A stretch of DNA of 64,000 nt from Tsukamurella pulmonis (GTDB lineage: Bacteria > Actinomycetota > Actinomycetes > Mycobacteriales > Mycobacteriaceae). The DNA is taken from positions 2,742,136 to 2,806,135 of the forward strand of contig NZ_FNLF01000002.1 of the NCBI RefSeq assembly GCF_900103175.1. The letters run 5' to 3'. Under the pieces are notes generated by a model. That model did no database searches, had not been told where the DNA came from, and was given only the letters and a program-made list of their open reading frames with translations. The position numbers and the translations under genes were made by a program. Shown here piece after piece: positions 4,215-50,604 of this stretch (its first letter is position 1; each line of letters begins with the position of its first letter).

Positions 4215-6683
4215 TCAGCGCAGGACGGCGCCGACCCGCTCTGCCGCGTTCGCCACCGCGGCGTCGCGGGCGGCGGAGGCCTCGTCCTCGGTCAGCGTGC
4301 GGTCGCCCGCGCGGAACCGCAGCGAGAAGGCGAGCGACTTGCGTCCCTCGCCCACCTGCGTGCCGGTGAAGACGTCGAACAGCGCGATCGCCTCGAGCAG
4401 CTCGCCCGCACCGTCGGCGAGCGCGGCCCGGACGGCCTCCGCGGGCACGGCACCGTCGACGACGACCGCCACGTCCTGCAGGACCGCCGGGAACGGCGAG
4501 ACCACCGGCGCGGGCAGGTTCTCCACCAGCGGGACCGCGTCGAGATCGATCTCGACCGCGCACGTGCGGGCGGGGAGCCCGGCGCGCTCGAGCACGGCCG
4601 GGTGCAGTTCGCCCGCGTGCCCGACGACGGTCTCCCCGACGAGCACCTCGGCGCAGCGGCCGGGGTGGAAGGGCGCGTACTGCGCGGCCCGCAGGGTGAA
4701 CTCGATGTTGCTCGCGCGGCCGATCTCCCGCACCGCCTCGAACGCATCCGTCGCGTCCGCGGCGCGCCCGGCGCCCCACGGACCGGCGACGGTCCGCTGT
4801 CCGGCGAAGACGAGCGCGATGTGCTCGGGCTGGTGCGGCAGCGAGGCGTTGAGCGCGTCGATCTGCTCCGCCGTGGGACGGCGGTCCACCGGGATCGGAT
4901 CGATCGCGACCGTCGCGGCGGTGGGGAGCACGACCTGCGCGATCGTGTACAGCGCGAGGTCGCGCTGGCCGCGGGCGACGTTGCGCGCCAGGATCTCCAG
5001 CAGGCCGGGCAGCAGCGTCGTCGCCAGTGCCGGCCGGTCGGACTCGAGCGGGTTGAGCACCTTCGTCGTCGTGCGGCGCGCGTCGTCGGCCTCGAGCCCC
5101 CAGGTGTCGAACACGTCGGCGGGGAGGAACGGGCTGGTCAGCACCTCGACGTGGCCGGTGTGCGCGAGCGAGCGGCTCACGATCCGGCGGCGGCGCTGGC
5201 GGGCGTTGAGGCCGCGGCCGCCGGGGGCGGCGGGCAGCACCGGCGGGATCTGCTCGAGGCCCTCGAGCCGCAGCACCTCCTCGACCAGGTCGGCGACCAT
5301 GGTCAGGTCGGGACGCCAGGTCGGCGGGGTCACCGTGAGGCTGCTCTCGCCCTGCACGGTGCAGCCGATCTGGGTGAGGCGGCGCACCGTCGTGCCCGCG
5401 GCGTAGGAGATGCCCGCGACGCGGTCGGGGCGGTCCGCGGCGATCGTGACCTGCGGACGGTCGTCGTAGGAGCCGAGGTCGGTGAGGTCGCCGACGACGG
5501 TGCCGCCCGCGATCTCGGTGAGCAGGCGGGCCGCCTCGCGCACGGTCCACACGGAGATCGCGGGGTCGACGGTGCGCTCGTACCGCTTCGCGGCGTCCGA
5601 GCTGAGCTTGTGCCGCTTGCCCGTGCGGAACACCTTGACGGGGTTCCAGATCGCGCCCTCGAGGATCACGTTGACCGTCTCCTCACCCACCTCGGTGGTC
5701 GCGCCGCCCATGACGCCCGCCAGCGAGACGGGGCCGGAGTCGTCCACGATGACCGCATCCTCGGGATCGAGCTTCCGCTCGACGTGGTCGAGGGTCTCCA
5801 GCGTCTCGCCGGCGCGCGCGGCGCGCACCGTCAGGCCGCCCCGGACGAGGTCGGCGTCGAAGGCGTGCAGCGGCTGTCCGGTGAGCAGCATGAGGTAGTT
5901 GGTCACGTCGACGGCCGCGCTGATCGGGCGCACGCCCGAGGTGAGCAGGCGTCGCTGCAACCACCAGGGGCTCACGGCCTTCGGGTCGATGCCCTCGACG
6001 CGCAGCGCGGTGAACCGGGTGCAGCCGGACTCCGGCTCGACGGTCACGTCGACCGCGCCGACGCCCGCGCCCTGCTTGTCCGACGGCGTGGTGATGTCGG
6101 TGAAGGGCAGGTCGTACCCGCACGCCAGCTCGCGCGCGAGGCCGCGCACGGAGAAGGCGTAGCCGCGGTCGGGCGTCACGTTGAGCTCGATGACGGTGTC
6201 GTCCATGCCGAGCACCTGCTTGGCGTCGTCACCGGGCTGCGCGGTCCCCGCGGGCAGCACGAGGATGCCGGAGTGGTCCGTGCCGAGGCCGAGCTCGGAG
6301 ACCGAGCAGATCATGCCGTCGGAGATGTGGTCGTAGGTCGTGCGCGTGGCGATCGCGAAGTCGCCGGGCAGCACGGCACCGGGCAGCGCCGCGACGATGA
6401 GATCGCCCTCGGCGAAGTTGCGGGCGCCGCAGACGATGTCGCGCGGCTCGGCCTCGCCCACGTCCACCTGGCAGAACCGGATCGGCTTGCGGAAGTTCGT
6501 GAGCTCCTCGATCGCCACGACGCGACCGACCTTCAGCGGGCCGGTCACGGTATCGAGCGAGTCGAGCTCCTCGACCTCGAAGCCGACGCGCACGAAACCC
6601 GCGTCCAGCTCGTCGGCGGTGACGCCCCAGTCCGGGGTGTCGCGACGGAGGATCTCGGTGAGCCATGACTGTGCAACGCGCAC
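4215..6683 (-). CDS. pheT: Phenylalanine--tRNA ligase beta subunit
   Basis: The 822-residue beta subunit of heterotetrameric PheRS, which charges tRNA-Phe. The N-terminal region ([23 protein letters not shown]) is the tRNA-binding EMAP-like domain. B3/B4 editing, B5 and the C-terminal ferredoxin-fold anticodon-binding domain ([15 protein letters not shown]) follow in the usual order. I chose GTG at 6681-6683, giving [12 protein letters not shown], the conserved family start, with GGAGAAGGA upstream. Longer in-frame extensions are unsupported. It follows pheS by 53 nt, giving the standard pheST operon. Confidence 0.97.
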
Positions 6684-6736
6684 GGTGGAAGTCCTTCTCC
6701 TGGAGGTTTGCTGGGGAGCGGGGTCGGGGTTCGGCG

Positions 6737-7867
<1,131 letters not shown>

Positions 7868-8420: not shown

Positions 8421-9869
8421 ATGACAGCAACCACGACGTCGACCGGCCCCGCCCCCGCAGACCTGCCCGGCCGGCGACCGGAGGACGAGTACCTGGGCTT
8501 CGGCCGCACCGTCGGCTACGGCCTGCAGCACATCCTGGCGATGTTCGGCGGCGTCATCGCCGTACCGCTCATCGTCGGCGGCGCCGCCGGCCTGGACACG
8601 GCGCAGAAGGCCCTCCTGGTCGCGTGCGGACTGTTCGTCAGCGGCCTCGCCACGATGCTGCAGACGCTCGGCGCGCCGTTCTTCGGCAGCCGCCTGCCGC
8701 TCGTGCAGGGAACGAGCTTCGCGACCGTCTCGACCCTGCTGACGATCCTCGCGGGCGACGGGGAGCACGGCTTGCGCGTGGCGTTCGGTTCCCTGCTCGT
8801 CGCGGCGGCCATCGGACTGGCGATCACGCCGTTCTTCGCCCGCATCATCCGTTTCTTCCCGCCGGTGGTGACCGGGTCGATCATCACGGTCATCGGGCTG
8901 TCGCTCATGCCGGTCGCAGCCGGATGGATCACGGGCCCGCGCACGACGACCGTCGGCGGCGTCGAGGTCCCCGCAGCGGGTTTCGCCGCGCCGTCCGACA
9001 TCGCCCTCGCGCTGTTCACGTTCCTCGTGGTGATCGCGTTGAGCAAGGTCCGCTCGCTGTCGCGGTTGTCGATCCTGCTCGGCCTCGCCGTCGGCACCGT
9101 CGCCGCCGTCCTGCTGGGCAAGGCGGCCGTCGGCGCGGTCGGCGCGGCCTCCGTGTTCGCACTCCCCCAGCCGTTCGCGTTCGGCGGGCCGCTGTTCGAC
9201 TTCGGGGCGATCGCCTCGCTGACCGTCGTCGTGCTGGTCATCATGGTGGAGACGACCGCCGACATCCTGGCCGTCGGCGAGGTCGTCGGCACCCCCGTCG
9301 ATTCCCGCAGGGTCGCCGACGGGCTGCGTGCCGACATGGCCTCGTCCCTACTCGCCCCCGTCTTCAACTCGTTCCCGGCGACGGCCTTCGCGCAGAACGT
9401 CGGCCTGGTCGCGCTCACCGGGATCACGAGCCGGTTCGCCGTCGCGGCGGGCGGCGCGATCCTGCTGCTGCTCGGCCTGTCCCCCATGGCAGCGGCGGCG
9501 TTCAGCGTGATCCCGGGGCCGGTCCTGGGCGGCGCGGGGATCGTGCTGTTCGGCACCGTCGCCGCGAGCGGCATCCGCACCCTGTCCACGGTCGACTTCC
9601 GGGGCAACAACAACCTCATCATCGTCGCGGCATCGCTGGCCTTCGGCCTGATCCCCGTGGTGTCCACCGACTTCTGGCACGCCTTCCCCGCGTGGTTCGT
9701 GGTGATCTTCCACTCCGGGATCAGCGCTGCAGCGATCGTGGCTGTCACGCTGAACCTCCTGTTCAACGTCATCCGGCCGAACGCCGGAGCGCGATCGTCC
9801 TCCGATCAGGCGTCCGACGGTGCCTCGCCTCTGCCCGCAACGACGGTGCGGGTGAGCGAGGGCGCCTGA
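8421..9869 (+). CDS. NCS2-family nucleobase:cation symporter (xanthine/uracil permease)
   Basis: A 482-residue polytopic membrane protein with about 14 hydrophobic segments. Family landmarks are QHILAMFGGVIAVPLIVGGA (TM1), LVQGTSFATV (TM3), the PPVVTGSIITVIGLSLMPVA signature segment, and MVETTADILAVGEVVG in TM8. These fit xanthine/uracil permeases of the nucleobase-cation symporter-2 family; xanthine seems likelier than uracil, but this is inference. A TAGCGT hexamer lies about 6 nt before the ATG, so the mRNA may be leaderless. The 3' end overlaps the convergent acyltransferase gene by 64 bp. Confidence 0.9.
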   Translation: MTATTTSTGPAPADLPGRRPEDEYLGFGRTVGYGLQHILAMFGGVIAVPLIVGGAAGLDTAQKALLVACGLFVSGLATMLQTLGAPFFGSRLPLVQGTSFATVSTLLTILAGDGEHGLRVAFGSLLVAAAIGLAITPFFARIIRFFPPVVTGSIITVIGLSLMPVAAGWITGPRTTTVGGVEVPAAGFAAPSDIALALFTFLVVIALSKVRSLSRLSILLGLAVGTVAAVLLGKAAVGAVGAASVFALPQPFAFGGPLFDFGAIASLTVVVLVIMVETTADILAVGEVVGTPVDSRRVADGLRADMASSLLAPVFNSFPATAFAQNVGLVALTGITSRFAVAAGGAILLLLGLSPMAAAAFSVIPGPVLGGAGIVLFGTVAASGIRTLSTVDFRGNNNLIIVAASLAFGLIPVVSTDFWHAFPAWFVVIFHSGISAAAIVAVTLNLLFNVIRPNAGARSSSDQASDGASPLPATTVRVSEGA

Positions 9870-11226: not shown

Positions 11227-12024
11227 CTATCCCCGATTCTGCACGCGCGAGCTCGCGTACAGGCAGATCGACGCTGCGGTCGCGAGGTTGAGCGACTCGG
11301 CGCGGCCGCGGATGGGAATGGCGACGCGGTGGTCCGCGAGGGCCTGGAGCTGTCCCGGCAGGCCGTGGGCCTCGTTGCCGAACAGCCAGGCGGTGGGGCC
11401 GGCGAGCAGGTCGTCGGCGTCGTCGAGCGAGACCTCGCCGTCGGCGGCGGTGGCGAGCACCGTCAGGCCCGAGTCCTTGAGCTGCACGATCGCGGCGGCG
11501 GCGTCGCGCTCCTGCACGACCGGCAGGTGGAAGACCGATCCGGCCGAGGCCCGCACGACCTTGCCGTTCATCGGATCGACCGCATCGCCCGCGAGCAGCA
11601 CGGCGTCGGCGCCGACGGCGTCGGCGACCCGGATGACGGTGCCGGCGTTGCCGGGCTCGGCGACGTCGACGGGGACCGCGACCAGCCGCGCACCGTCGGG
11701 CACGACGGCCTGCGGCAGCGCCCGGCAGACCGCCACGATCCCGGGCGGGGTGACGGTGTCCGACAGCCCCCGCATGGCGCGGTCGGTCACATACGCCACG
11801 CGTGCGGTGAGCAGTTCCGGATACCGCTCGGCCCCCTCCTCGGTGACGAAGAGCTCGTCGACGAGTCCGGCCTCGAGCGCGGAGGTGACGGCATTGGAGC
11901 CCTCGGCGAGGAACAGTCCGGCCTTACGGCGGCCGGCGGCGCGCAGGAGCTTGGATGCAGCAACGACCCGCGGGGTCCGCTCCGTGAAGAGCTGGTCCGC
12001 GGGTCGTTGCGAGTGGTCTGCCAA
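11227..12024 (-). CDS. tsnR: SpoU/TrmH-family RNA 2'-O-methyltransferase
   Basis: A 265-residue SPOUT methyltransferase that would methylate a ribose 2'-OH in rRNA or tRNA. An N-terminal substrate-binding domain (AGLFLAEGSNAVTSAL) precedes the knotted catalytic domain: PVDVAEPGNAGTVIRVADAVGADAV, then WLFGNEAHGLP, then IPIRGRAESLNLATAASICLY. These three are the family motifs. The start is TTG at 12022-12024, 1 nt after the rplT stop codon, so translation is probably coupled. Its position after infC-rpmI-rplT matches M. tuberculosis tsnR. The exact modified nucleotide is unknown. Confidence 0.88.
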   Translation of the reverse strand: MADHSQRPADQLFTERTPRVVAASKLLRAAGRRKAGLFLAEGSNAVTSALEAGLVDELFVTEEGAERYPELLTARVAYVTDRAMRGLSDTVTPPGIVAVCRALPQAVVPDGARLVAVPVDVAEPGNAGTVIRVADAVGADAVLLAGDAVDPMNGKVVRASAGSVFHLPVVQERDAAAAIVQLKDSGLTVLATAADGEVSLDDADDLLAGPTAWLFGNEAHGLPGQLQALADHRVAIPIRGRAESLNLATAASICLYASSRVQNRG

Positions 12025-47561: not shown

Positions 47562-47966
47562 CTACCTGCGCCAGGTGTTCAGCGTGACAGCACTGTTGAC
47601 GACGAGCATCACAGCACACAGCCCCCAGAGGATCCGAGCCTCCGCCGACGGACCACCGTCGCGGAACGGCATCGAGATCAGGACGAACGCGTTCAGCAGG
47701 GCCTGCACGAACACTATTGCCGCGGCACGCTTCGCATAATCCGAGACCTGGCGTCGACGCCACGCCACGACGACCGAGGTCGCACCGACCGCACAAGCGG
47801 CAACCCCGATTCCGACGACCAGCCGCGGAAGGTGAACTGGGGAGAGCGCGCCCGCGAGCAACACCGCAGCCACGGGAATCTGCGCATACCAAGCCACCCG
47901 CATCGGATCAGGTTTCGGCAATCGCGGTACTCGGATTCCCGCGATGGAAGCCGCTCTACTGTTCAT
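47562..47966 (-). CDS. Small four-TM membrane protein downstream of the reverse transcriptase
   Basis: A 134-residue protein with four hydrophobic segments at about residues 24-42, 47-69, 81-100 and 112-131, and a basic loop RRRQVSDYAKR between TM2 and TM3. I do not recognise the family. It starts 33 nt after the reverse transcriptase stop, so the two are probably cotranscribed. Membrane proteins encoded beside retron reverse transcriptases are often effectors, so this is the best candidate effector. That is inference from position only. ATG at 47966 is preferred to 47990. Confidence 0.6.
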   Translation of the reverse strand: MNSRAASIAGIRVPRLPKPDPMRVAWYAQIPVAAVLLAGALSPVHLPRLVVGIGVAACAVGATSVVVAWRRRQVSDYAKRAAAIVFVQALLNAFVLISMPFRDGGPSAEARILWGLCAVMLVVNSAVTLNTWRR

Positions 47967-47999
47967 GCGGAGCAATATGCCACGGGACACTGACGCCGC

Positions 48000-49277
48000 T
48001 CACCATCGAACCCGCTCGGCCATCGCGCGCAGGCGTTCCCGGCGGGCGTCGTTGCCCTGCGCGACCCACGCGATCCGGCCGTACACGTGGGCGCGGAAGT
48101 CCTCGTGGCCGTCGCGATTCTGGCTCTCCGGCCCGAATCGGGCGGCGTTGTGCAGCAGCGCCCGCAGCGCGTCGTACTCGGCGCGCGGCACCTGCGCGCG
48201 TGCGTTGACGACGACGCCGGCGAGCTCCTGTCGGTCACCGGACCGCATGATGCGCGTCTTGCGCGGGTTCACCGAAAGTTTCTCGGCCGCCACGATCTTC
48301 GGCACCACCCCCGCGATCAGCGCAGCGTCCCGGGCATTCGAGAAGGCCAGATCGTCGCCGTAGCGGCTGTACCGGGCGCCCTGAGCCCGGGCCAGCCCCG
48401 TCAGCCGCGCATCCAGCCCGCGCAGCACCAGGTTCACCAGCGCGGGTGAGGTGGGCGCTCCCTGCGGGAGGTGCCGCGACCGCAGGACCGCCGCCTGCCA
48501 CGGGTCGAGGCCGCGCAGTTCGTCCACCGCGGTCGACGTGGTGCACAGGTCCGCGAGCAGCCCGGCGACGGGCACGGGATATCCGAGCCGGCGGAACGCG
48601 CCGCGGACGCGGTCGACGGTCACCGTCGAGAAGCAGTCGCGCAGGTCGAGGCGCACGACGGACCGGGCGCCGACGTGCGGAGCGGCGTACGCGAGTACGG
48701 AACCGCCGGGCCGGAATCCACACGCCGCCGGGTGGGCGCCGGCGGGGTCGAGGACCCGGTGCAGGATGCGCCGTTGCGCTTCGGCGAGACGCGGTTTCGG
48801 CGCCTCGATCACGCGGACTCCCCCGGAGGGCTTGGCCATCCGGCGGACCCGGTAGTGCCGCAGGGGGCCGGTGGCGTGCCGCAGCCACTGGCCGTGATCG
48901 ACGAACCACTCCAGCTCCGGCGCAGTCACGTCCAGCATCCGTGCGACGGCGGCGACATCGGGCAGCGCGACCCCCGGAACCTCGAGCGGCGCTCGGGCGC
49001 CCAATCGTTCGACGGTGCGGACGGTGTCCAGCGCGACGACGATCGCGTCGCGATCCGGCGCGACCGGGGTTCCGTCGATGATCGCGAGCGGCGGCGCGGG
49101 ATGCGCAGCGAGGAGCTCACGCGCGACGGTGGGCACCAGTTCGCCGGGGACGATCCCGCGGATCGCCACCGCGACGCGGTCGGCGGTCCACATCTCCTCC
49201 GTGAACATCTCCACCCGGTCGGCGATGGCGTACCGCCACGCGCGGGGCAGTCGCCGGCTGATCTCGACGGCACTCAT
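48000..49277 (-). CDS. Retron-type reverse transcriptase
   Basis: A 425-residue RNA-directed DNA polymerase. RT motifs appear in order: HYRVRRMAKPSGGVRVIEAP (141-160), LAEAQRRIL, GFRPGGS, LDLRDCF (210-216, first catalytic Asp), LPQGAPTSP (270-278), YSRYGDDLAFS with YGDD at 306-309, KLSVNPRKTRIM and LAGVVVN (352-358). YAAPH (197-201) stands where retron RTs have NAxxH, and LAG where they have VTG. There is no maturase or endonuclease domain as in group II introns. ATG at 49277 is used; the in-frame ATG at 49349 would overlap the predicted msd. A structured region with 11-bp terminal repeats lies just upstream. Confidence 0.85.
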   Translation of the reverse strand: MSAVEISRRLPRAWRYAIADRVEMFTEEMWTADRVAVAIRGIVPGELVPTVARELLAAHPAPPLAIIDGTPVAPDRDAIVVALDTVRTVERLGARAPLEVPGVALPDVAAVARMLDVTAPELEWFVDHGQWLRHATGPLRHYRVRRMAKPSGGVRVIEAPKPRLAEAQRRILHRVLDPAGAHPAACGFRPGGSVLAYAAPHVGARSVVRLDLRDCFSTVTVDRVRGAFRRLGYPVPVAGLLADLCTTSTAVDELRGLDPWQAAVLRSRHLPQGAPTSPALVNLVLRGLDARLTGLARAQGARYSRYGDDLAFSNARDAALIAGVVPKIVAAEKLSVNPRKTRIMRSGDRQELAGVVVNARAQVPRAEYDALRALLHNAARFGPESQNRDGHEDFRAHVYGRIAWVAQGNDARRERLRAMAERVRW

Positions 49278-49294
49278 GACGGGGATGCGAACGC

Positions 49295-49438
49295 CGCTCG
49301 GGTGACCTGAAACATGTTCCCGGAGCGCCGTCGCGTGCGCGCAGCGCACCGTCCGGCGTGGGACGCGGGGTGTGACTGTGCAGTGCCCCCAGCGGTTGCC
49401 GCTGAGACGGATCGCGTGGATCCCACCTCACCCGAGCG
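49295..49438 (-). ncRNA. Candidate retron msr-msd non-coding RNA
   Basis: On the minus strand CGCTCGGGTGA (49438-49428) and its exact reverse complement TCACCCGAGCG (49305-49295) flank 122 nt, like the a1/a2 repeats of retrons. Inside, in order, are hairpin GGATC/GATCC (49423-49409), hairpin CAGCGG/CCGCTG (49404-49390), and a long hairpin with outer arms CCGGA/TCCGG and inner arms GTGCGC/GCGCAC (49356-49320). A G follows the 5' repeat (GTGA-GG), where the branching guanosine would be. The 3' repeat ends 17 nt before the RT start. Layout fits msr then msd; no covariance or expression data support it yet. Confidence 0.55.
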
Positions 49439-49498
49439 ACGCCGCATGAATCCAGAGTGCCACAGGCCGGAGCACGGTCCGGAGTTCCCGGCCCGGGT

Positions 49499-49969
49499 TC
49501 ACACGAGCTCGCGGATGTAGCAGAGCATCCGGTAGTCGGTGCCCGGCTCGATGTTGTAGAAACCGTGCCGGTCGTAGAACCGGCGGGTATCGACGTCCAC
49601 CTCGTCCACATTGATGTGCATCTCACCGCCGCCGCGGACGCGAACCTCGGCGATGGCGCGCTCGAGCAGCGCGGTACCGATCCCCCGATCGCGCAGGTGC
49701 GGAACGACGTACAGTTCGTCGAGCACCGCCAGCGGACCGTCGCAGTACACCGTCGGACGCAGTGTGACGAGCGCGTAGCCGGTGGGGCCGGCCTCCTCGG
49801 CGTCGCCCCAGGAGAACAGAACGAACGCGGCCGGATCGTCCATGAGCCGCGCGTACCGCCGCTCCAGCACTTCCACCGTCGGCACGGGTGAGCCGAACTC
49901 CACGTTGAAGTCCACCTGCAGTCGCGCCGCAGTGGCGGCGTGCTCCGAACGCATCAGTTCAACCCGCAT
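49499..49969 (-). CDS. GNAT-family N-acetyltransferase
   Basis: A 156-residue single-domain GNAT. The acetyl-CoA-binding motif A is LYVVPHLRDRGIGTALLERAI (R/Q-x2-G-x-G/A), and RRFYDRHGFYNIEPGTDY is the C-terminal motif B. The substrate is unknown. ATG at 49967-49969 (MRVELMRSEHAA) is chosen because an in-frame extension would run into the upstream membrane-protein gene. It lies upstream of the candidate retron RNA on the same strand. Confidence 0.82.
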   Translation of the reverse strand: MRVELMRSEHAATAARLQVDFNVEFGSPVPTVEVLERRYARLMDDPAAFVLFSWGDAEEAGPTGYALVTLRPTVYCDGPLAVLDELYVVPHLRDRGIGTALLERAIAEVRVRGGGEMHINVDEVDVDTRRFYDRHGFYNIEPGTDYRMLCYIRELV

Positions 49970-50019
49970 GGCCCCAGTGTCCTCGCTGCGCAGAGCCTGC
50001 GACAGCGGATTTCCGGTCG

Positions 50020-50604
50020 TCAGTCGCGCATCCCGCACATCCACCAGCCGCCGCCCAGCGGCACCGGGCCGCGGCACGCCATGCCGTACATGTCGAACCC
50101 GTCCGGAGACCCGGACGGCACGTACCAGTAGCCGCCGGCGTCATCGGGGATCCCGGTCCACTGCGGGAAGAAGCGGGCACCGTCGGTCCCGCGCTTCGAC
50201 ACGGTCCCTCCCTCGGTGAGGAAGCGCAGGTGCACGGGCAGACTCGCGTAGTAGTCGTCGCTGATGTCGACGGAGCGCGCCTGCTCGTACAACGGCCTGT
50301 GCAGTGAGAACCAGGTCTGCGGGGCGATCCACCACCACGCACCGATCACCGCGGTCACGCCCACCATCACGGGAACGACGAGAAGCCCGACCAGGCCGGC
50401 GGCGCCCCCGCGAGCGAATCCGGTGATCACCAGGACGAACCCGAGCGCGAAGCAGATCCAGGCGATCGGCACGATCACGAGGTCGAGGATCCACAGGTTC
50501 AGCCGCAGGTACGAGTGCAGCATCGCGACGCCCCAGAGCGCGAGACCCGCGCCGACGGTGCCGCGGCTGACGCGCCGGTTCTTCCACCACGGATCCACGT
50601 ACAC
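50020..50604 (-). CDS. Membrane protein of unknown function
   Basis: A 194-residue protein. About three hydrophobic segments lie in residues 20-100 (TVGAGLALWGVAMLHSYL, LVIVPIAWICFALGFVLVIT, AGLVGLLVVPVMVGVTAVIG). A soluble C-terminal part of about 90 residues rich in Gly, Trp and Tyr ends in GGGWWMCGMRD. The soluble part probably faces outward. I do not recognise the family. Confidence 0.6.
   Translation of the reverse strand: MYVDPWWKNRRVSRGTVGAGLALWGVAMLHSYLRLNLWILDLVIVPIAWICFALGFVLVITGFARGGAAGLVGLLVVPVMVGVTAVIGAWWWIAPQTWFSLHRPLYEQARSVDISDDYYASLPVHLRFLTEGGTVSKRGTDGARFFPQWTGIPDDAGGYWYVPSGSPDGFDMYGMACRGPVPLGGGWWMCGMRD

Follow-up and report, generated by a model that had tools for sequence, protein, structure and literature searches.

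We report a conserved, structured RNA directly ahead of a retron-type reverse transcriptase (RT) gene in Tsukamurella pulmonis, and we consider it likely that the two form a stand-alone retron that makes msDNA (probability roughly 0.87, judged from sequence comparison). Retrons are small elements that reverse-transcribe a portion of their own RNA. A first-pass annotation of this DNA had proposed the a1-msr-msd-a2 layout of a retron here, and that proposal is now supported by covariation, by the fit of a1 to a2 in held-out loci and by the linkage of RNA and RT. The proposal is also refined: the element is no isolated oddity, being one member of a lineage that many genomes of the order carry, and a linked effector gene was not recognised in the loci examined. 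Its RNA and RT sequences point to an actinobacterial retron lineage without a recognised linked effector. Coordinates are positions in the window, the whole 64,000-nt stretch of T. pulmonis DNA that was analysed, and the retron lies on its minus strand (Table 1).

Results

The minus-strand order is a1, a guanosine at 49427, hairpin 1, hairpin 2, a long branched hairpin, a2 and the RT start codon. The perfect 11-bp inverted repeat first noticed here, with arms 122 nt apart, was found exactly as described (49428-49438 and 49295-49305), and it can be extended to arms of 14 nt that are 93% complementary (13 paired, 11 of them as the perfect run). The RT ATG (49277-49275) lies 17 nt past the perfect part of a2, the spacing originally reported, and the long hairpin of the first-pass annotation corresponds to the branched msd hairpin. 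Its two short perfect hairpins are both in the alignment fold, but the second contains one G-U pair. The G noted just after the 5' repeat is present and ends a GAG that closes a1 in 28/29 RNAs of alignment A3 and 18/18 RNAs of alignment A4; a cruder anchor scan also settled on GTG, GGG or GAA in some loci. By analogy with Retron-Mxa2, whose priming context GAGC resembles the GAG here (available part of PMC6868368), this G may be the priming site for synthesis.

Table 1. Features of the putative retron in the window
Feature	Position	Strand	Basis
Retron ncRNA (a1-msr-msd-a2)	49292..49441	-	covariance model R1, 116 bits, E 5.7e-17
a1, 5' arm	49428..49441	-	perfect over 49428-49438; compensatory changes
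Candidate priming (branching) guanosine	49427	-	last G of conserved GAG closing a1
msr hairpin 1, 5 bp	49409..49423	-	alignment fold
msr hairpin 2, 8 bp, 3-nt loop, one G-U pair	49388..49406	-	alignment fold
msd long branched hairpin	49319..49362	-	alignment fold; tip stem 49335-49349
Presumed reverse-transcribed template (msd)	49306..49368	-	both ends placed by retron anatomy
a2, 3' arm	49292..49305	-	perfect over 49295-49305; compensatory changes
Retron-type reverse transcriptase, 425 aa	48000..49277	-	YGDD; YAAPH at NAxxH place; LAGVVVN at VTG place
N-terminal extension of RT, aa 1-105, fast-evolving	48963..49277	-	rate analysis

Hairpin 2 is the most conserved element: in the 29 aligned RNAs, which a loose hairpin-2 motif had helped to select, 100% of its cells are paired. 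The hairpin-1 region varies strongly in length between lineages and is absent from the 29-sequence consensus. Folded as a single sequence, the RNA reaches -82.2 kcal/mol (z -3.1; 0/200 shuffles as good), and this fold recovers both msr hairpins and pairing at the msd tip. The predicted msDNA strand would form a hairpin, yet one not better than its shuffles (z -0.9). Taken alone, the inverted repeat is weak evidence and modestly unlikely: shuffling the 250 nt ahead of the RT 2000 times yields such a repeat in 0.65% of cases, and the window as a whole has 26 perfect repeats of at least 11 bp with arms 80-200 nt apart, where 30 shuffles lead one to expect 11.9 and reach 19 at most. Because the repeat by itself is only modestly unusual, the case for a retron RNA rests on homologues.

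Sixty actinobacterial RT loci (L048-L107) were fetched, 10 from Tsukamurella and 50 others hand-picked from the matches at E below 1e-57; this selection leaves out several equally strong matches (many from one genus) and all weaker ones. Our own locus (L010) and 28 of the 60, hand-picked for a clear a1/a2 and with L058 and L064 re-anchored by hand, gave 29 RNAs that were aligned with MAFFT without structure (A3). The check proposed at the outset, covariation across orthologous loci, was carried out with RNAalifold for the consensus fold and pair counts from A3 in place of R-scape, and covariation was found. The consensus has 33 pairs, of which 23 change on both sides. Paired cells make up 91.1% against 68.2% in shuffled controls, 208 cells carry double changes against 74.8, and the covariation score is 0.558 against 0.167 (0/500 shuffles in each case) and against 0.070-0.157 in slid registers, a control in which the true register is favoured because the structure was derived from the same alignment. 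A plain count of the pairs that carry a double change sets the alignment only a little apart from the shuffles (23 against a mean of 19.5; 3/500 as high). Covariation in helix 1 (a1/a2) is biased, since the RNAs were selected partly by a1/a2 complementarity; the two msd helices, which were not selected by pairing, have double changes in 9/13 pairs. Among the 11 Tsukamurella RNAs alone, 9/51 predicted pairs show a double change. Conservation among homologues and covariation together raise the retron RNA far above chance.

That the upstream conservation instead reflects coding for N-terminal residues in the RT frame is scarcely credible. The frame is open beyond the RNA in 30/58 loci, but in the other 28/58 a stop closes it within or past the RNA, in the window inside a1 (49430-49428), and we rejected this reading because of such stops. 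RNA lengths that differ by non-multiples of three and the presence of compensatory changes also speak against it.

The covariance model R1, built from the 29 RNAs, matches 60/60 of L048-L107 at E <= 1.4e-4, including 32 loci outside the model, six of which are close Tsukamurella relatives; the match is partial in L070 and L077. The window match is expected, since the window RNA is among the 29 sequences, and it is the sole R1 match in its genome. R1 also matches upstream of the RT in L005, L124, L207, L208 and L209, and beyond the 60 loci the RNA is present on a Dietzia plasmid as well as in Burkholderia and in a deltaproteobacterium. At E <= 10 R1 gave no match in L006-L009, and at E <= 1 none in the Methylobacterium locus L210, though the RTs of these loci are related; nor was one found in the RT-less Tsukamurella loci L118 and L120-L123.

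In 26 held-out loci (25 actinobacterial from outside Tsukamurella plus L005, with L068 dropped and L070 and L077 included, both scoring low), the fit of each a1 to its own a2 averages 21.5, against 11.3 (sd 0.65) with the a2 of other genera (0/400 permutations). Arm bases strictly outside R1 contribute little to this difference (7.8 against 6.8; 1/400). A paired a1/a2 around an msr-msd beside the RT was found, with L068, L070 and L077 as the exceptions. The RNA is on the RT strand in 58/58 scored loci, with the start codon within 40 nt in 52/58 (counts that exclude L068, and also L080, whose RT a local search did not find). In a phylum sample of 296 genomes, the RNA occurs in 3 and the RT (E <= 1e-20) in the same 3; the phylum-wide RNA search contributed one genome outside the order.

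An RNA that is strongly folded and lies directly upstream, 17 nt before the start codon, would also suit an element whose only role is to regulate the RT gene in cis, as a leader or attenuator. We consider this highly improbable: the a1/a2 closure and conserved G fit retron anatomy, the three genomes with an R1 match have one match each, and in L068 an ABC-transporter ORF separates the RNA from the RT.

The L068 locus (minus strand) has its RT at 5995-7350, the ABC-transporter ORF directly upstream of it, and two ncRNA copies at 9564-9714 and 11233-11399, ~2.2 and ~3.9 kb upstream, which resemble each other over their 3' part. Judged by this layout, L068 is a retron whose RNA is separated from the RT and partly duplicated.

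The window RT is the sole RVT_1 match of its genome (E <= 0.001), RVT_1 is the only Pfam match on it, and its three closest named relatives are from Tsukamurella. Its two best PADLOC models are RT_other (6e-160) and RT_outgroup (1e-150), with RT_XIII and RT_III-A next, and these first four ranks are identical in 7/7 other members tested, the deltaproteobacterial and Burkholderia ones included. RT_other and RT_outgroup are protein models without a type number that match the RTs of the family nearly end to end, N-terminus included. In contrast, the Type XIII and III-A models, next best at 3e-89 and 1e-64, cover only aa 107-422 and 140-425 of the window RT, and no partner gene was found here. Among solved sequences matched at E <= 1e-10, 12/14 are named retron RTs and 2/14 are named RNA-directed DNA polymerase only. 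On these profile and sequence scores, taken without a tree, the RT belongs to the retron clade. The closest solved RT, Ec86 (Eco1; 7v9u, 4e-29), has 320 aa, and its alignment with the window RT starts only at aa 140 of the latter. Ec86 has a1, msr hairpins, msd hairpin and a2 in the same order as here; it also has an effector, whereas none was recognised here.

All 57 aligned members carry YxDD (57/57; the alignment leaves out L050, whose RT is broken, L060, L068 and L080). At the NAxxH place the N is kept in 0/57, the A in 45/57 and the H in 56/57, and the full VTG motif occurs in 10/57, its G in 56/57. For comparison, the accessible text of PMC4244168 reports NAxxH as identifiable in 59% of retron and retron-like RTs (with the N in 62% of those) and VTG in 47%. 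The two retron motifs are thus only partly kept, which we counted against the retron reading.

Incomplete NAxxH and VTG motifs, like the lack of a recognised effector gene, would be in keeping with a retron-clade RT and structured template RNA used in the manner of DRT systems, with other priming and repeat or gene synthesis but no classical branched msDNA. We regard such a use as improbable, given that a1/a2, the adjacent conserved G and the msr and msd hairpins stand in retron order with covariation, and that the nearest solved RTs are retrons, with solved Drt2 matched only at 2e-4. A retron that makes branched msDNA is the reading we prefer.

The N-terminal extension of the RT evolves quickly. 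In 15 (non-independent) pairs among six Tsukamurella loci, dN/dS is 0.11-0.19 in the RT core and 0.19-0.79 in aa 1-105, and in 30-codon bins from five Tsukamurella loci most of the N-terminal part has pN/pS values of 0.56-0.80, compared with 0.08-0.31 for core bins. The picture in a second genus is weaker and uneven (pN/pS 0.14-0.78 N-terminal, 0.19-0.55 core). The N-terminal regions of 10 members have no Pfam match above the curated cut-off, and an N-terminal profile found nothing in the PDB better than E 0.095; a loose pattern is common to the family. The rapid change could mark an interface in an arms race, or no more than a relaxation of constraint.

Typed retrons are tripartite. In the loci examined here, neither a linked effector gene nor a known fused effector domain, as expected of types I-XIII, was found, and we counted this, too, against the retron reading. 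When ORFs of at least 80 aa from 67 loci were clustered, no gene family beside the RT was common to many genera. Two further clusters that span many genera consist almost entirely of opposite-strand ORFs around the RT, and families in 7 and 5 genera were found on both strands. The first downstream ORF, as given by a crude ORF caller, is on the opposite strand in 31/49 non-Tsukamurella loci. Small, fast-evolving or distant partners might escape a neighbour search of this kind.

Between the RT and a HAD gene, the window holds a small ORF with hydrophobic segments (47562-47990, minus strand), whose similarity to DUF2157 is weak and below cut-off. Retron types with membrane effectors exist, and we asked how probable it is that this ORF, or another linked gene, is an effector of that kind; our answer is very improbable. 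The ORF directly follows the RT in the window and is present in 5/11 Tsukamurella RT loci and 0/5 RT-less loci inspected (one of these, L118, being a short contig). However, the HAD gene abuts the RT in L049 and L057 and lies ~860 nt from it in L056, the ORF has no PADLOC match at E <= 0.1, and a neighbour family like it is absent across genera, though small fast-evolving proteins are easily missed.

A separate gene set was seen in L006 (1721-8242), from a Comamonadaceae MAG. There, a retron-like RT ends a 1043-aa protein whose N-terminus of ~750 aa has no Pfam match. Three genes come after it, the first unknown, the second for an AAA_5 ATPase and the third a DUF2201 metallopeptidase/VWA gene; PADLOC gave no match at E <= 1e-10 for any of these followers. 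Related genes occur in L007 and L009, and the neighbours after the RT are also found in Polaromonas and Rubrivivax. We consider this gene set a candidate conflict system.

Within Tsukamurella, the element is present in 11/16 genomes, our own included, the other ten at 58-77% identity. Across the order, 106/397 genomes have an RT match at E <= 1e-3, and some of the weaker matches are probably other RTs. One other genus is positive in 16/23 genomes (16/18 of those of good quality), with the match broken or partial in 2/16 (G270 and G293). The retron can evidently move, since it also occurs in Burkholderia pyrrocinia and on a Dietzia plasmid (L208, the 47-kb pII), with merA on one side and a transposase gene on the other.

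All pairs (45/45) among the 10 fetched Tsukamurella loci have common neighbours, with polA upstream in 10/10 and rpsA downstream in 9/10 (the L056 stretch shows only the HAD gene downstream). Elsewhere, pairs with at least two common neighbours number 4/21 in g14, 3/28 in g25, 10/15 in g35, 3/3 in g43 and 1/3 in g4. In RT-less Tsukamurella, the flanking genes lie side by side in L121 and L122, another 1.8 kb is at the site in L123, HTH-HAD-polA is found on a short contig in L118 (genome G011), and an RT remnant is near the HAD gene in L120 (3152-3244; 31 aa, 55% identity, E 7e-5). From the sharing of neighbours and the RT-less loci, there is one ancestral Tsukamurella site near polA, with losses; in some other genera the element has moved more.

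The record of L207 (NZ_LR134447.1, 52521-61747) is titled Tsukamurella tyrosinosolvens plasmid 5. Because polA and rpsA flank its retron, L207 appears to be chromosomal DNA that was recorded as a plasmid. Upstream of the retron in the window is a GNAT acetyltransferase gene (49499-50077, minus strand), whose match to AAC(3)-XI falls below threshold (149.9 bits against a cut-off of 300) and denotes similarity only. Carriage of the family by phages was considered and set aside: the best 80 of 348 RT relatives on viral contigs (26-37% identity) have no R1 RNA at E <= 1. The 12 phage records matched are all under 35% identity.

Discussion

The RNA was not assigned to an Rfam family. The window has 0 matches at gathering thresholds, and no Rfam family matched this RNA in window 49200-49550 (E <= 10) or in 16 loci (E <= 1). 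Three annotated records name these RTs only 'reverse transcriptase family protein'. According to the available part of PMC6868368, the myxobacterial retrons Mxa1, Mxa2, Sau1 and Nex2 (Mx162, Mx65, Sa163 and Ne144) have an N-terminally extended RT, as here, and Mxa1 and Sau1 were likely inherited vertically, comparable to the fixed site of the Tsukamurella element. Unlike here, the myxobacterial msd is longer (162 nt in Mxa1) and the hosts are Deltaproteobacteria, and the likeness is one of description. Given these N-terminally extended, likely vertically inherited retrons in myxobacteria, the kind of retron is already known.

In the portion of the 2019 review at hand (PMC6868368), experimentally validated retron RTs come only from Gamma- and Deltaproteobacteria, and bioinformatic putative retrons in Actinobacteria are already cited. 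Alphaproteobacteria and Bacteroides join the list in a 2022 review (PMC8867640, in the part available), and PADLOC includes msr-msd covariance models (PMC9252829, likewise in part). No description of an actinobacterial msr-msd was found in the available parts of the literature searched (PMC4244168, PMC8934634, PMC12548924, PMC12262390, PMC6868368, PMC8867640, PMC6498646, PMC9252829), which did not reach key retron surveys.

We propose that the RNA would be transcribed together with the RT gene. The covariation-supported pairing of a1 and a2 would close the RNA and may set the conserved G at the start of synthesis. The RT would then bind the near-invariant msr hairpin 2 and copy the msd hairpin from the 2'-OH of the G, giving a predicted branched msDNA of ~60 nt. 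The resulting complex of RT, RNA and DNA would act without a linked effector.

What such a complex is used for is a matter of more tentative suggestion. Our first choice, which we put forward with less than even confidence, is defence by a guarded complex, with the N-terminal region of the RT, or a partner encoded elsewhere, as effector or sensor. Non-defence use of the msDNA is the main alternative and ranks next. The N-terminal ~105 residues are the best candidate for the missing effector or sensor. It is conceivable, if rather unlikely, that the lineage is self-sufficient, with the effector or phage sensor inside the RT as its fast-evolving N-terminal domain, so that one gene and one RNA would make up the whole immune or stress device. 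If true, such a one-gene, one-RNA device would sit at a fixed site in Tsukamurella and be present in many genera of the order.

From the perspective of retron biology, a covariation-supported msr-msd is now given for a large actinobacterial lineage, and its GC-rich retron parts are on offer for genome engineering in actinobacteria. Natural loss in related species indicates that the locus is dispensable there, and it makes the function testable by gene removal. The fixed Tsukamurella locus, with no recognised effector, reopens the question of what role effector-less retrons play.
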